From: an uncultured Aquimarina sp.
GTDB lineage: Bacteria; Bacteroidota; Bacteroidia; Flavobacteriales; Flavobacteriaceae
Assembly (NCBI GenBank): GCA_947498595.1
Contig: CANMKX010000002.1
Location: 269,343 to 333,342, forward strand
Length of the DNA stretch: 64,000 bases
Reading direction: 5' to 3'
In this document: piece by piece, positions 50,161 to 57,951 of the stretch
Layout: each line of letters begins with the position of its first letter
Position numbering within the stretch: position 1 is the stretch's first letter
Program-made: the position numbers and the translations under genes
The notes under the pieces: generated by a model
What the model saw: only the letters and a program-made list of their open reading frames with translations
Database searches by the model: none
Told to the model about the DNA's origin: nothing

Positions 50161-50886
50161 ATGAAATTGAATGTATTTATAATTACAGTAAGTCTAGTAC
50201 TATTTTCATCTTGTGCTCTACATAAAGGTCACCTTAGTTTTCAAACAAAATCTGATGAAATAATAGCAACACCAAAAATAAAAAAATTCATAAATGATCA
50301 TCCTAACCCATCTATTGTACTCAAAGCTACAAGAGTCGAAAATAAGTCAACACAATCTGATCCCAATAATTATATCTATAATGCTATAGAAAAAGAATTA
50401 TTACTTGCTGGTTTCGATGTTAAAGATCGTGGTTTATATAATGAGGTAGTAGAAAAGTCCAGTGAAATTAGTTATGCCGATCTAAAAAAACTCACTAATA
50501 CAGAATTATTATTAGAATTAGTAAATATATCTACCAATATAGAATATGGGACAAATAAATTTTATACAAAAGAAGGGGAAGAAAAAATATCTGCTAAAAA
50601 CTTCATTCAATACGGGGCTTCTATTGTTTTTAAACTAACAATTATAGAAACTAATCAGTTCGCAGGCAGTTATACATTTAATTTTACTCCATGTAGCGAT
50701 AAAACTACAGGCTGTGAATGTGAGATTGCTTATAAAAATTATTCTCCCGTTCTCGTATACCCTCATCTAAGTCAATGCAAAGATCCTAAAAATAACTCAA
50801 AAGGATATGAGTACGTTTCAAAAGACGTTATGGAAGAATTCGTCCGCAATGGTGTCAAACAAATGATTCAAGAAATGAAGAATTAG
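50161..50886 (+). CDS. Hypothetical lipoprotein (CsgG/DUF799-like?)
   Basis: Lipobox LVLFSSCALHKGH; IYNAIEKELLLAGFDVKDRGLYNEVVEK. Confidence 0.65.
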   Translation: MKLNVFIITVSLVLFSSCALHKGHLSFQTKSDEIIATPKIKKFINDHPNPSIVLKATRVENKSTQSDPNNYIYNAIEKELLLAGFDVKDRGLYNEVVEKSSEISYADLKKLTNTELLLELVNISTNIEYGTNKFYTKEGEEKISAKNFIQYGASIVFKLTIIETNQFAGSYTFNFTPCSDKTTGCECEIAYKNYSPVLVYPHLSQCKDPKNNSKGYEYVSKDVMEEFVRNGVKQMIQEMKN

Positions 50887-50967: not shown

Positions 50968-51147
50968 ATGTTACAAAGTGTTTTACGTGTAAAAGGAGTT
51001 CATCAATTAAATAAAAATGATCAAAAAAGCATTCAAGGAGGTTTTAACAATACTAATTGTGAAATCGCTATTTCTATTAACGGTACATTATGTCTATGCC
51101 GTGGATGGGAACCTCAAAATGGGATTTGTGTAAATACAAACCAATAG
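50968..51147 (+). CDS. Double-glycine leader peptide, bacteriocin/secreted-peptide-like (59 aa)
   Basis: MLQSVLRVKGVHQLNKNDQKSIQGG|FNNTNCEIAISINGTLCLCRGWEPQNGICVNTNQ; leader pattern L..GV..L.K..QK.I.GG; hairpin ATTGCAA-AGG-TTGCAAT just downstream. Confidence 0.75.
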   Translation: MLQSVLRVKGVHQLNKNDQKSIQGGFNNTNCEIAISINGTLCLCRGWEPQNGICVNTNQ

Positions 51148-51253
51148 TGCATATTGCAAAGGTTGCAATTTATTACAGTCTTTGTATTTTTAGTACTTCT
51201 TAATTTATTGTATCGCTATTTTAAAATGATACAATGATGTAATCATACAAAAC

Positions 51254-51284
51254 AAAACGCCCAAAGTGTTCTTTGGGCGTTTTT
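51254..51284. terminator. Bidirectional terminator
   Basis: aaaacgcccaaag-tgtt-ctttgggcgtttt. Confidence 0.9.
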
Positions 51285-51303: not shown

Positions 51304-54300
51304 TTACTGCTTTATAAAACGAGTATTCAGTTTGGATCCTTCCTCGGCCAATTCAATTATATACATTCCACTCTCTAATTGAGATACATCTATTGTTTTG
51401 CTAAAAGCACCTTGTTGTACAACTTGTCCTAAAACGTTATAAACTTTGTATGTTTCCATTGTTTTTCCAGTCAAGATTATTTGTAATACATCTTGATCTT
51501 GTATTGGATTTGGATACACCTTAAAAATCGTTTCAGTTATTGTCGCTTCAGTTTCAATATTTGTTTCTATAGGTCCTGCTACACCTGCATTAACATTTAT
51601 TTTATAATCTTCTATTTCTCCCGTATGTGATATCTCACACGGATCTGGTGATAAATAATAAGACACTCTCACTCGCATTACTGTAGGTCCTGGTACTGCT
51701 GTAGCTGGTACTGTTACAGTCTGTGATCCTCCGTCAGTACCTCCATTAAAGACTTGCTCTCCTGCATCTGTAAAATCTCCATCCTTATTCCAGTCAATAT
51801 AAGCATATACCTTATTTAAATCCCAGTTAGTTGATACTCCTATTGATAATGTTTCCGTACTGCCAGCTGTTACCGTAGTAGATTGATCTGTATAATCACT
51901 ATATCCATTACTCGCTCCTAATACTGATGTATTATTTATTGTTCCAAAAGTTACGTTTTCTATATAATAATAATCTAATGATGCTGTTGTAGAAACGATA
52001 CAATAATCAGGCAAAGTAGTTCCTAATGTTGTAATTACAACTGTATTACTAGAACCTGATATATTTCCTGCTTCATCTCTCGCATGTACCGTAAAAGCAT
52101 AACTAGTTTCTTCATCTAACTCTATAATTAACTGCGAAGTCTCAGTAACTGTTCCTAATAATACAGGTCCTTGATAGATATCATAACCTGTTACTCCTAC
52201 GTTATCTGTAGCAGCATCCCAAGATAGTGTAGTAGTAGTAGTAGTCGTTCCTGTAGCAATTAGATTAGTTGGTACAGATGGTGCTTGCGTATCTACAGTA
52301 GTATCTTCAAAAGTGATTAAATAATCTTCTACTTCTCCTGAGTCAAATGATTCACAACTGTTATTTTCACCTGTTCTATAATTCATTATAACTCGTAATC
52401 GAGAGCTTCCCGTAAGATCCTCAGGTACTGTAATACTTCCATTTATAGGATCACTCCCTGTTCCTGTTAATACAAGTTCTCCTGAATCTCCAAAATCTCC
52501 ATCTGCATTAAAATCTACCCATACAGACCAATTTTCATCATATAATTCATCTGCTCTAAATCCTGGTGTTAAAGTAATAGGTGTAGATTCTCCGGGAGCT
52601 ATATTAATTTCATCATCCGAATAATAAGTATAACCTGATGCTCCTGATGCATTTTGATATTCTCCAATAGTTACTTCTGCAATCCATTCATATGTTTGAT
52701 CTCCTCCTTCAATTGTACAGTACTCTTGTACTCCTAAAGTTGTTACAGTTATTTCATTACTCGACACCGAGGTATTTCCTGCTTCATCTATAGCTTTCAC
52801 TACAAAAACATAAGCTGTATCCGGAGACAAGTCACTTATTCCATAACTAATCGTAGTTACAGTTGTTATCAATGTACCATCTTGATATACTTCATACCCT
52901 ACTACTCCAACATTATCTGTTGCGGCATCCCATGTTAAAGTTGTTTCTGTAGTTGTAGTACCGCTAGCTGATAAGTTTGCTGGCGCTGAAGGAGCTTCTG
53001 TATCTTCATTGGTTATAATTTCTGTTTGTCCAGCCAAAATAGTTCCTGATGGCTCCGTGCTATATGCATAATCTAATAATGAATATGAATCACCTGACGC
53101 ATTGACTTGAAAACGAAACCATCCATAAAATTCTTTGTTATCTTTTTTGAATCTAAAACCTGCAAAAGCAGTCTGTCCATTCCATGCTGTATAACTTGCA
53201 GATCTTATATCATGTAGATCAGGATATCCTCCTCCATCTGTCCAATTACTTGTGCTAGTTATTGGTGTTCCCTCTGTTAATACTGCTACATTAATAGTAT
53301 TACCTACTGTTACCATAGCTTCAGTATACGTTTCAAATTGCAATGCATATTGTCCACTAGGATGTCCAGATGCGTTATAGAATAGCCCCCCATAATTAGT
53401 ACCGCCTCCTAATGATGGTATATTATCATCTGTAAAAGGTTTCCATACATCTGATGCTGTAACTTTAAGGTCATCATTGTCAACATAAATAATTTCAAAT
53501 GGATCTAAAAACTCGTACATAACCGTTACAGAAGTTACATCGGCTTGAATTGCTGCTGCCGTAAAGTTAATAGTCCCTGGGCCACTATCGCTAGCTGTAT
53601 GCGAACTTGCACTTCCTGTATAAGTTACTGTAGCCTGTGTTTTTGATGCATTAACTTCAATACTAATATTCAATCCGCTAGGAATGTTTGCTGTATAATG
53701 TGTTCCTTCTGATAAGATTCCACTTACATTAAACATTGTATTATGTGCTTCTACAATAGTTACGCCATCCAATGTTCCATTATTTATAGAAGCCTCACTT
53801 ATATTTCCATCTTGTACATCAACATATGGGTTACTCGATTGTTGCTGCCCTGCTAAAATAGTACCTGATGGCTCTGTAGTATATGCATAATCTAATAATG
53901 TATACGAGTCACCTACTCCATTAACTTGAAAACGTAGCCATCCATAAAATTCTCTAGTTCCTTTTTTGAATCTAAATCCAGCATAAGCTGTCTGTCCATT
54001 CCAATCATTATAATTACTAGATCTAATATCATGTAAATCTGGATATCCTCCTCCATCAGTCCAATTACTTGCATTACTTATAGGCGTATTAAGAGCTAAT
54101 ACACTTACATTTCTACTATTCCCATTAGTTATCATTGCTTCAGTATACGTTTCAAACTGTAAGGTTGGTTGCCCTGTAGGGTGTCCTGATGCATTATAGA
54201 ATAACCCTCCATAATTAGTACCGCCTCCTAATGATGGTATGTTTGCATCTGTAAAAGGTTTCCATACATCTGTTGAATTTGCAGTTAAATTAGGATTATT

Positions 54301-55677
54301 AACATAAATGATTTGATATGGATCAGAAAATTCGAAGTTAATTCCTATCGTTGAAGAATTAGAGGTAACTGTTGCCGCTGCAAAAGTAATAGTTCCTTGC
54401 GTGCTATTACTTGCTCCATGCGCCGTTGCCGTACCTGTATAAGATACAATAGCTTCAGTTCCTGATGCATTTACGTTAATATCTACTCCTAATCCTGCTG
54501 GTAAATTTGTTGTATAATGAACCCCTTCAGCTAAAGTTCCTTGTACATTAAATGTAGTATTAAGCGTTACAATTTTTGAAGTTCCTTCTATACTTCCATC
54601 ATTCGCTATGGCTTCTATTACATCGGGTGTTTCTATAGCGATAGAAGCTGCTCCATCATCTGTACCTGTATCATTTAAGTTCCCTGGCTGCCATAATGGA
54701 AATCTTGTTGAATGTTGTAATGCTGCTATAGCTCTACTTATTTGTCCTTGCGTAAACATTTTATAACATCCAGTCGATCCATTATATCCCATATAATTTT
54801 CATGATTGATGTATTCGTTATTACAGTTTCTAGCTCTATTACATCCTGTTCCTCCTCCGGTGTCTTCTTGTGGTGTATCATTTACATAATCTGTTCCTCC
54901 ACATCCACCATCATGAGTATGTACTAAATTTAACCAGTGCCCAAATTCATGTGTTAATGTAGAAGAGAATTCATGACTTGTATTTCCTGTTAAATATCTA
55001 CCGTTATATACAATACGCGCTACATCATCATCTGAGTCAAATGCACTAGGATACCATGCTACTCCTGAATTATTAGTTCCTCCATCATTATACAAATCTG
55101 CTTGGATATATACATTCATGTATTTATAATTATCCCATGCATCTTGTGCTATTAATGCACGTGTTCCTCCATCATTATTACCATATCCCCCACGTGGTGC
55201 GTGAAATACAACTCCATTAGTTGCATTTCCGTCTGGGTCTATTGTTGCTAATTTAAATTCGATATTCAAACTAGATTTAATTCCATCAAACAACGGATCA
55301 ATAGTATTGAAATCAGGGTTCAATCCTTGAAATTCTTCATTCACTTGACCAATAGAATTTACTATTGTATTATAGGTTACTGATGATCCACTCTGTACTG
55401 TTCCATATACATGAAATACGACAGGAATAGTATACGTCGCTGCTGCTTTTTCTTGTAATCCTTCTGCGATAAGCCGTTCGCTGAAGTTATTAAATTCAAG
55501 AAATTTTTGATATGCACCTGGGTTTGTTTCCCAATATTCTTTCATGACCTTGTCGGTCTTACAACCTATTCCTTCTTGCCCCCAAGAAAAGGAAAAGATA
55601 AATAGGGTGAGTAATAAATAATAAGATTTCATAATAAATTGAGTTTTGTGTATTGCAAATTTAAATGTTAAAAACAA
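51304..55677 (-). CDS. Large secreted M43-family metalloprotease with duplicated accessory domains, Fn3 and GEVED-like domains, T9SS C-terminal domain
   Basis: HEFGHWLNLVHTH; two copies of DVWKPFTDxNIPSLGGGTNYGGLFYNASGHP...; Fn3 motifs (APSAPANLSASGTTTTETTLTWDAATDNVGVVGYEVYQDG); C-terminal VYPNPIQD...MYIIELAEEGSKLNTRFIKQ. Confidence 0.92.
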   Translation of the reverse strand: MFLTFKFAIHKTQFIMKSYYLLLTLFIFSFSWGQEGIGCKTDKVMKEYWETNPGAYQKFLEFNNFSERLIAEGLQEKAAATYTIPVVFHVYGTVQSGSSVTYNTIVNSIGQVNEEFQGLNPDFNTIDPLFDGIKSSLNIEFKLATIDPDGNATNGVVFHAPRGGYGNNDGGTRALIAQDAWDNYKYMNVYIQADLYNDGGTNNSGVAWYPSAFDSDDDVARIVYNGRYLTGNTSHEFSSTLTHEFGHWLNLVHTHDGGCGGTDYVNDTPQEDTGGGTGCNRARNCNNEYINHENYMGYNGSTGCYKMFTQGQISRAIAALQHSTRFPLWQPGNLNDTGTDDGAASIAIETPDVIEAIANDGSIEGTSKIVTLNTTFNVQGTLAEGVHYTTNLPAGLGVDINVNASGTEAIVSYTGTATAHGASNSTQGTITFAAATVTSNSSTIGINFEFSDPYQIIYVNNPNLTANSTDVWKPFTDANIPSLGGGTNYGGLFYNASGHPTGQPTLQFETYTEAMITNGNSRNVSVLALNTPISNASNWTDGGGYPDLHDIRSSNYNDWNGQTAYAGFRFKKGTREFYGWLRFQVNGVGDSYTLLDYAYTTEPSGTILAGQQQSSNPYVDVQDGNISEASINNGTLDGVTIVEAHNTMFNVSGILSEGTHYTANIPSGLNISIEVNASKTQATVTYTGSASSHTASDSGPGTINFTAAAIQADVTSVTVMYEFLDPFEIIYVDNDDLKVTASDVWKPFTDDNIPSLGGGTNYGGLFYNASGHPSGQYALQFETYTEAMVTVGNTINVAVLTEGTPITSTSNWTDGGGYPDLHDIRSASYTAWNGQTAFAGFRFKKDNKEFYGWFRFQVNASGDSYSLLDYAYSTEPSGTILAGQTEIITNEDTEAPSAPANLSASGTTTTETTLTWDAATDNVGVVGYEVYQDGTLITTVTTISYGISDLSPDTAYVFVVKAIDEAGNTSVSSNEITVTTLGVQEYCTIEGGDQTYEWIAEVTIGEYQNASGASGYTYYSDDEINIAPGESTPITLTPGFRADELYDENWSVWVDFNADGDFGDSGELVLTGTGSDPINGSITVPEDLTGSSRLRVIMNYRTGENNSCESFDSGEVEDYLITFEDTTVDTQAPSVPTNLIATGTTTTTTTLSWDAATDNVGVTGYDIYQGPVLLGTVTETSQLIIELDEETSYAFTVHARDEAGNISGSSNTVVITTLGTTLPDYCIVSTTASLDYYYIENVTFGTINNTSVLGASNGYSDYTDQSTTVTAGSTETLSIGVSTNWDLNKVYAYIDWNKDGDFTDAGEQVFNGGTDGGSQTVTVPATAVPGPTVMRVRVSYYLSPDPCEISHTGEIEDYKINVNAGVAGPIETNIETEATITETIFKVYPNPIQDQDVLQIILTGKTMETYKVYNVLGQVVQQGAFSKTIDVSQLESGMYIIELAEEGSKLNTRFIKQ

Positions 55678-55866: not shown

Positions 55867-57951
55867 TTATTTCTTCACAATTCTCTTAACTCCTATATTT
55901 TTTCCGTTTTTAAATATCTTCATAAAATAAATCCCTGTAGTCGTTAATTCATTCTCTATACGTATTGTATTAGATCCATTCGTAACTACTTCTTTATAAA
56001 CTTTCATTCCTAAAGTATTATATATTTCTATGATAATTGAATCTGATGTAACATCTGAAAATTCTATTTGAATTGTATTCGTAAAAGGGTTAGGATATAC
56101 TTCAAAAGATTTTTTTTCTGCTACTTCAAAATCATTTGTAGCTAATACTTGTTGTCCTGTTAATATCTCTCCAAAAGGTTCTGTATTATATGCATAATCT
56201 AACAATGAGTACGCTGTTCCATCTCCATTTACACTAAATTGAAACCATCCGTAATATTCTCTATTATCAATAGTAAACCTGAAACCTGCATAAGCTGTTT
56301 GTCCATCCCAATCGGTATAACTATTTGTTCTAATATCATGTAAATTAGGAAAATTACCTCCTGACACCCAATTACTTGTTGTTGTAATTGCTGAATTCTC
56401 TGCTAGCATCGCTATATTTTTTGTAGCACCTACAGTAATCATTGCTGCTGTATATGTTTCAAATTGCAAGGCTGGTTCTCCGCTAGGATGTCCTGATAAA
56501 TTATAAAATAATCCTCCGTAATTTGTACCTCCACCTAGTGATGGTATATTAGCATCTGTAAATGGTTCCCATACATCTGATGTATTTACTGTAAGATCGT
56601 TTACATCTACATAGACAATTTCATAAGGGTCAACAAATTCGAATTCCAATGCCAACGTATTTGCTGTTAATACAATTCCTGCATCCAAAAAAGTAATAGT
56701 TCTTGAGGTCGTATTTGAACTTTCATGATTTATAGCATTCCCTGTAAAAAATATAGTTGCCTCGTTTCTAGTATCATTCACTTCTATCCTCGCTGTTAAT
56801 CCATCTGGGATGTTTCCTATATAATGAGTTCCTTCTACTAATACTCCGGATATATTAAAGTTCGTATTCGTTACAGTAATAGTCGCTTCTGTTTCAATTC
56901 CACCTGTATTAGAAATTTCTTCTTTAAAAACAGAAGTATCAAGCGTGGCTATAGCATCACCACTATCTGTTCCTGTATCAATTAAATTTTGTGGCTGCCA
57001 TAATGAAACTCTTGCTGAATGTTGCAATGCAGCTAACATCCTATCAATTTGCCCTTGTGTAAACATTTTGTAACATCCACTAGCTCCATTATATCCCATA
57101 TAATTCTCATAATTGATAAAATCATTGTTGCAGTTTCTAGCTGCTACGCACCCTGTACCTCCAGCTGTATCTTCTTGCGGAGTATCACTTACAAAGTCAT
57201 CTCCTCCACATCCATTAAAATGAGTGTGTCTTAAATTAAGCCAATGTCCAAATTCATGTGTTAATGTAGAAGCAAATTCATTACTCGTATTACCCGTTAA
57301 ATATTGTCCATTATAAACAACACGTGCTACGTTCGCATTAGAATCGACAGTACTAGGTAACCAAGCTACTCCTGAGTTATTACTTACCCCATTATTATAC
57401 AAGTCTCCTTGAATGTATACATTCATATATTTGTAGTTATCCCATGCATCTAATGCTATAGAAGAACGTGTTCCCCCATCATTATTACCATAACCATTTC
57501 GTATTCCATGAAATACAACACCATTCGTTACATTACCGTTTGGATCAATTGTCGCTAATTTAAATTCAATACTCATTGTAGATTTAAGCCCATTAAACAT
57601 AGGATCTACTGTATTAAAATCAGCATTCAAACCTTGAAATTCTTCATTTACTTGATTAACCGAATTAACTATTGTATTGTAATCTACTGTATCTCCATTT
57701 TGAACAGTTCCATATACATGAAAAACTACAGGAATTGTATAAGTTGCCAAAGAAGCATTTTTACGCAATCCTTCATTTGTGATAAAATCCTTGGTAAATT
57801 GATTAAAATTTTGATATTCTTGATAAGCCTCTGGAGACAACTCCCATAAGGACTCCATTCCTTCTTCAGTTTTACAATTTTCTTGAGCATACATCCCTGA
57901 ATACAAAGTAAATATATACATCATTAAAAATTGGGGTAATTTCTTTTTCAT
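55867..57951 (-). CDS. Secreted M43-family metalloprotease with one accessory domain and T9SS C-terminal domain
   Basis: HEFGHWLNLRHTH; DVWEPFTDANIPSLGGGTNYGGLFYNLSGHP; VYPNPFTNTI...GIYFMKIFKNGKNIGVKRIVKK. Confidence 0.92.
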   Translation of the reverse strand: MKKKLPQFLMMYIFTLYSGMYAQENCKTEEGMESLWELSPEAYQEYQNFNQFTKDFITNEGLRKNASLATYTIPVVFHVYGTVQNGDTVDYNTIVNSVNQVNEEFQGLNADFNTVDPMFNGLKSTMSIEFKLATIDPNGNVTNGVVFHGIRNGYGNNDGGTRSSIALDAWDNYKYMNVYIQGDLYNNGVSNNSGVAWLPSTVDSNANVARVVYNGQYLTGNTSNEFASTLTHEFGHWLNLRHTHFNGCGGDDFVSDTPQEDTAGGTGCVAARNCNNDFINYENYMGYNGASGCYKMFTQGQIDRMLAALQHSARVSLWQPQNLIDTGTDSGDAIATLDTSVFKEEISNTGGIETEATITVTNTNFNISGVLVEGTHYIGNIPDGLTARIEVNDTRNEATIFFTGNAINHESSNTTSRTITFLDAGIVLTANTLALEFEFVDPYEIVYVDVNDLTVNTSDVWEPFTDANIPSLGGGTNYGGLFYNLSGHPSGEPALQFETYTAAMITVGATKNIAMLAENSAITTTSNWVSGGNFPNLHDIRTNSYTDWDGQTAYAGFRFTIDNREYYGWFQFSVNGDGTAYSLLDYAYNTEPFGEILTGQQVLATNDFEVAEKKSFEVYPNPFTNTIQIEFSDVTSDSIIIEIYNTLGMKVYKEVVTNGSNTIRIENELTTTGIYFMKIFKNGKNIGVKRIVKK

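Follow-up and report, generated by a model that had tools for sequence, protein, structure and literature searches.

Bacteroidetocins are proposed class IIf bacteriocins of Bacteroidota, and their precursors combine a double-glycine (GG) leader with a four-Cys core (PMC6671954). Their leaders measure 15-16 aa and their mature forms 42-48 aa; both of the tested peptides are cationic. The locus lacks an immunity gene and encodes a C39 ABC transporter together with a thiol oxidoreductase, without which toxin activity is attenuated (PMC6671954). By comparison of features, bacteroidetocins appear to be the closest known tested system to the peptide gene described here, which also comes from Bacteroidota and encodes a GG leader and four core Cys. 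However, its leader is 25 aa long and its core 34 aa, and no four-gene operon of the bacteroidetocin type (5-TM protein, peptide, thiol oxidoreductase and PCAT, the C39-peptidase ABC transporter) is found around the gene.

Binding of leaders by C39-type domains is described for the LahT protease (LahT150), in which leader residues -4, -7 and -12 lie in a docking groove, and for the C39-like domain (CLD) of HlyB, which has the C39 fold without the catalytic Cys and recruits the substrate (PMC6363468). The present peptides resemble PCAT substrates (LahT, class II bacteriocins, microcins) in the GG site, the hydrophobic residues at -4 and -12 and the intact C39 transporters. Unlike them, they always carry Gln at -7 and Lys at -10, form a large scattered family, and have an extra partner, a protein in which a CLD, a vitamin K epoxide reductase (VKOR) and a thioredoxin domain are fused (CLD-VKOR-Trx). 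The bacteroidetocin oxidoreductase and 5-TM protein, in contrast, are separate genes. As in HlyB, the C39-like domain of the fusion has no catalytic Cys, but here His and Asp are missing as well (alignment A3), and the domain is joined to a quinone-linked disulfide oxidase rather than to an ABC transporter. The remaining part is similar to Synechococcus VKOR-thioredoxin (PDB 4nv6) in its VKOR core, loop Cys pair and CXXC, and C-terminal thioredoxin domain, and differs from it in the N-terminal CLD and one extra transmembrane helix.

The peptide gene and its surroundings

The window, i.e. the whole stretch of 64,000 nucleotides analysed here, comes from an uncultured Aquimarina sp. The features at the peptide gene are as follows.

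50968..51147, + strand: precursor peptide ORF, 59 aa (translation; leader HMM; ortholog in congener G017)
50968..51042, + strand: double-glycine leader, 25 aa, Cys-free, MLQSVLRVKGVHQLNKNDQKSIQGG (alignment A1)
51043..51144, + strand: core, 34 aa, with 4 Cys at C31, C42, C44 and C54 (translation; all kept in the G017 ortholog)
51153..51169, + strand: small hairpin ATTGCAA-AGG-TTGCAAT just 3' of the stop codon (read from the sequence)
51254..51283, both strands: bidirectional intrinsic terminator with a 13-bp G+C-rich stem and T/A tails (1 found, 0.3 expected)

An earlier sequence-only reading had proposed this ORF, its GG leader and a 34-aa mature part with the four Cys; translation gives exactly the peptide that it wrote, with every Cys in place. 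The hairpin and terminator that it placed behind the ORF are likewise present. The terminator sits between the peptide gene and a convergent M43 protease gene and serves both. The single promoter-like match upstream of the ORF does not exceed chance, since shuffling predicts 4.1.

A leader HMM was built from 28 related leaders, with the window sequence and its ortholog left out. It still recovered the ORF at E=3.3e-11 when the window was searched as 1,634 stop-to-stop segments (runner-up E=1.3), and a chance ORF was rejected on this basis. A full-length ortholog with 53% identity and all four Cys conserved occurs in G017 (G017:C6:409018), and for this pair the pooled dS of 0.77 exceeds the dN of 0.45, although the sample of 58 codons is small. 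Among 13 closely related leader-peptide pairs, which are not independent, dN/dS is about 0.2 in leader and core alike. As dN is well below dS in both parts, the leader-peptide ORFs are coding; a pseudogene was rejected on the existence of the ortholog and the coding type of substitution. Synteny between the ortholog and the window was rejected because the neighbouring genes differ.

Family models provide little information on the peptide. It has no Pfam match, its PDB matches are only noise, and a single-sequence AlphaFold prediction was unusable (mean pLDDT 50). The leader motif is of a kind similar to that of NCBIfam NF047798 leader_Chryseo ("bacteriocin-like protein"), but the peptide scores 11.5 bits, below the curated cut-off of 23.5 bits; 3 of 30 own-genome peptides touch this model, with a best E of 0.0007.

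The gene is an orphan close to the end of contig C2, with neither a fusion nor a PCAT anywhere in the window. The sequence-only reading had noted the absence of a C39 transporter there, correctly, as the C39-peptidase ABC transporters of the genome all lie elsewhere. A 241-aa lipoprotein-like ORF on the same strand (50161-50886, +) ends 81 bases 5' of the peptide ORF; it has no Pfam family above cut-off and is absent beside the G017 ortholog. On the other side lie tandem related M43 (pappalysin-type) metalloprotease genes (51304-55677 and 55867-57951, -), the first encoding a type IX secretion tail in addition to fn3 and GEVED domains.

A leader family and a candidate fused oxidase

The leader is shared by about 34 peptides in the own genome (leader profile A1, E<=0.1), and the same profile finds 0-55 per genome in 38 genomes of the genus. 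In alignment A1 (30 leaders), three positions are invariant (K -10, Q -7, G -2); position -4 is I/V/L/F and position -12 is L/I. The hydrophobic residues at -4 and -12 fit the C39 docking positions of LahT150 (PMC6363468); the Gln at -7, against Leu in LahT, counts against the reading preferred below. Similarity between members is far higher in the leaders than in the cores. Among 29 tabulated own-genome peptides, selected by leader only, Cys makes up 0 of 709 leader residues and 141 of 1,132 core residues, and each core contains 4-6 Cys. Upstream regions of the own-genome paralogs had no obvious shared motif, by eye only and without statistics. In a wider search of genome contigs, the sole match to the leader was a distant one in a Dokdonia MAG.

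Two full PCATs with intact domains (C39, ABC_membrane and ABC_tran) were found in the own genome, at C2:41450 and C1:51575, and the C1 operon has the order CLD-VKOR-Trx, PCAT, HlyD. Three further C39-like matches are membrane proteins of about 530 aa with C39-like, VKOR and thioredoxin domains (Pfam C39, PF03412, above cut-off; VKOR; Thioredoxin). No VKOR protein other than these three fusions was found in the genome. Two of the three have Cys-rich GG peptides as immediate neighbours (four at C5, two at C11). The six redox Cys of the fusions, i.e. two VKOR Cys pairs and the thioredoxin CXXC, are all kept in each of 21 homologues from across the phylum. Record annotations read only "vitamin K epoxide reductase family protein" or similar, and NCBIfam has no model for the fusion.

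A partner of this composition points to disulfide formation as the modification. The preferred reading, to which a probability of roughly 0.72 is given, is that the product of the window ORF is processed to a small, secreted peptide rich in disulfides, with leader-guided disulfide formation followed by C39 cleavage and export. The peptide may instead be an ordinary PCAT-exported GG peptide whose disulfides form later, spontaneously or through general periplasmic enzymes, with the fusion hitch-hiking and doing another job. That GG leaders can be processed by PCATs alone (PMC6363468) agrees with this possibility, and so does the position of the window gene, since the fusion genes found beside peptides are linked to other family members and not to it. 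The distribution of the genes, however, speaks against it.

Across the 38 genomes of the genus, leader peptides occur in 32 of 32 fusion-positive and 0 of 6 fusion-negative congeners (Fisher p=3.6e-7; p=2.2e-5 for genomes at least 90% complete). Two of the six fusion-negative genomes are incomplete assemblies. C39/PCAT genes are present in four of the six, all without leader peptides; in one of these, G007, the PCATs share 70-74% identity with the C1 PCAT, yet the fusion and all of these leaders are missing, and PCAT presence alone was therefore rejected as a predictor of the peptides. Two fusion-positive congeners (G003 and G012) have just one recognisable leader peptide, in accordance with a fusion that has another job. 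In the phylum set, the fusion occurs in 40 of 395 genomes, and all 15 leader-positive genomes (leader at E<=1e-4) are among these, against none of the 355 fusion-negative ones (p=8e-17). A second genus, g17, has the leader in 12 of 13 fusion-positive and 0 of 8 fusion-negative genomes, among those listed. These p-values are inflated by shared ancestry, as the genomes are not independent; the pattern is nevertheless repeated within two genera.

Outside the genus, Cys-rich GG peptides were found at 23 of 29 fusion loci, counting ORFs within 1.5 kb whose GG leader is free of Cys and whose core has 4 or more. Dinucleotide shuffles gave a mean of 0.23 loci, and none of 25 control loci, the surroundings of an aldehyde dehydrogenase gene, met this definition (p=4e-10). 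The adjacency recurs across several orders of Bacteroidota. Plasmid pAT1 of Aureibacter tunicatorum carries, in a row, the fusion, two GG-Cys peptides, PCAT and HlyD; on pEMTOL01 of Emticicia and on a Parabacteroides distasonis plasmid, small Cys-rich ORFs annotated as hypothetical follow the fusion. No fusion copy was found on viral contigs among the contigs scanned. Given this recurrent adjacency, the situation in G007 and the lack of any other VKOR in the genome, an ordinary exported GG peptide is considered unlikely, though it cannot be dismissed.

The core Cys may also bind metal instead of forming disulfides, in a secreted metal-binding peptide. The window core contains a CLC motif and several paralogs a CC motif, and most cores carry a negative or no net charge (mean -1.2 in the 29 own-genome peptides), as might suit such a function. 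The strict partner, however, is a disulfide oxidase and no metal-handling protein, and the core Cys number is even in 24 of the 29 peptides; the five odd ones count against disulfide pairing. Metal binding is thus regarded as improbable. The same mean charge argues against a simple cationic pore-former, and a simple cationic antimicrobial model was rejected.

Finally, the ORF may give rise to a RiPP with enzymatic crosslinks (a lanthipeptide or a radical-SAM product) and not to a disulfide peptide. One of 30 family members has a weak match to NCBIfam TIGR04149 (rSAM-modified RiPP; E=0.084), a model that the window peptide itself does not match, and a LanC-like gene lies two genes upstream of the G017 ortholog. 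This LanC-like gene, however, has its own adjoining GG-Cys peptide (L028:5936-7491), and no maturase gene was recognised beside the window ORF or beside those own-genome paralogs that were inspected, with not all neighbours scanned. A crosslinked product is accordingly given very little weight.

Several other gene arrangements were seen in the same survey. At L031:3273-4073, four near-identical Cys-free GG-leader peptides stand in tandem near Cys-rich ones, with the motif LTKTQQK.V.GG followed by DPLTNQ..IDLDIS. In genus g17, tandem Cys-free GG peptides flank the fusion gene at loci L092, L093, L094, L095, L097 and L100, on the opposite flank from the Cys-rich ones; they represent a second peptide class, and several end in GNGKGSN or similar. 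A 337-aa protein at L043:13512-14525 has a similar N-terminal C39-like domain and is another C39-like architecture; a CLD-VKOR-Trx gene lies nearby, as does a protein of 440 aa. At L040:5540-10628 (G000:C2:38539-43627), two tandem proteins of about 425 aa, the first with a weak JmjC/cupin-like stretch, accompany a PCAT and a 52-aa GG peptide with repeats VTERVKVTERVRVT; this cassette resembles an unclassified RiPP cassette with putative iron-dependent oxygenases.

Predicted fusion topology and the proposed route

Hydropathy of the 21 homologues indicates six helices in the fusion, and the Synechococcus VKOR-thioredoxin has five. With six helices, the C39-like and thioredoxin domains should share one side of the membrane. 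The side that carries thioredoxin, redox loops and the C39-like domain has a Lys+Arg density of 0.176 (241/1367), and the other side one of 0.025 (6/237). By the positive-inside rule, the active side would be cytosolic. Hydropathy and charge thus suggest an inverted, cytosolic oxidase, a topology that is only predicted. The charge pattern is opposite to a periplasmic active site, unlike that of Synechococcus VKOR-thioredoxin (PDB 4nv6). The prediction is limited by the shortness of the loops on the opposite side, and no canonical VKOR set served as a charge control. An inverted VKOR, with CLD, redox loops and thioredoxin all cytosolic and quinone-driven, leader-guided disulfides made before export, is therefore put forward tentatively, as a serious possibility that falls somewhat short of an expectation. 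The VKOR of Aeropyrum pernix is archaeal and is not known to have a CLD or a peptide partner. According to its title, as listed among the references of PMC12453122, a 2017 study by Hibender et al. reportedly has this enzyme promoting disulfide formation in two compartments.

If the active side is cytosolic, the leader would be available there prior to C39 cleavage. Under the preferred reading of a disulfide-rich secreted peptide, the leader of the reduced precursor would dock on the catalytically dead CLD of the membrane fusion, and the thioredoxin/VKOR part would oxidise the four core Cys to two disulfides and hand the electrons to quinone. The leader would then pass to the active C39 domain of the PCAT, which has HlyD in the same operon; this domain would cut after the GG, and the core would be exported. 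Leader binding by the CLD and oxidation of the core are inferred, with no expression, mass spectrometry or structure data, and GG cleavage and export of the window peptide are proposed in the absence of peptidomics. That the orphan gene is served in trans by distant machinery is inferred from its leader. The product probably acts outside the cell, in competition or signalling, which is an inference without activity data.

The sequence-only reading would have been refuted by a leader not conserved in relatives, by a genome without a C39 transporter, or by substitutions inconsistent with coding. The leader recurs in many paralogs and in relatives, two full transporters are present, and both the G017 pair and the 13 related pairs show substitutions of the coding type, so that this reading as a whole is supported. 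Its suggestion of a bacteriocin, signalling peptide or RiPP precursor stands as a set of possibilities; the choice among the three is not settled.

Significance of the peptide family

No literature pairing VKOR with peptidase C39 was found, with most subscription journals not covered, and a prior description is not excluded; publications joining vitamin K epoxide reductase with RiPP appeared unrelated, going by their titles alone.

The unannotated 59-aa ORF is a handle on a large hidden secretome of tens of Cys-rich peptides per genome, which curated family models miss and which are now linked to one candidate enzyme in several orders of Bacteroidota. If the fusion reads the leader, it would provide genetically encoded disulfide installation in varied core sequences. 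With a cytosolic active site, the fusion would be a rare example in bacteria of an enzyme dedicated to forming disulfides in the cytosol. The inverted VKOR, if true, would mean that disulfide formation is a programmed, RiPP-style modification, applied in each genome to a scattered library that numbers dozens of peptides.
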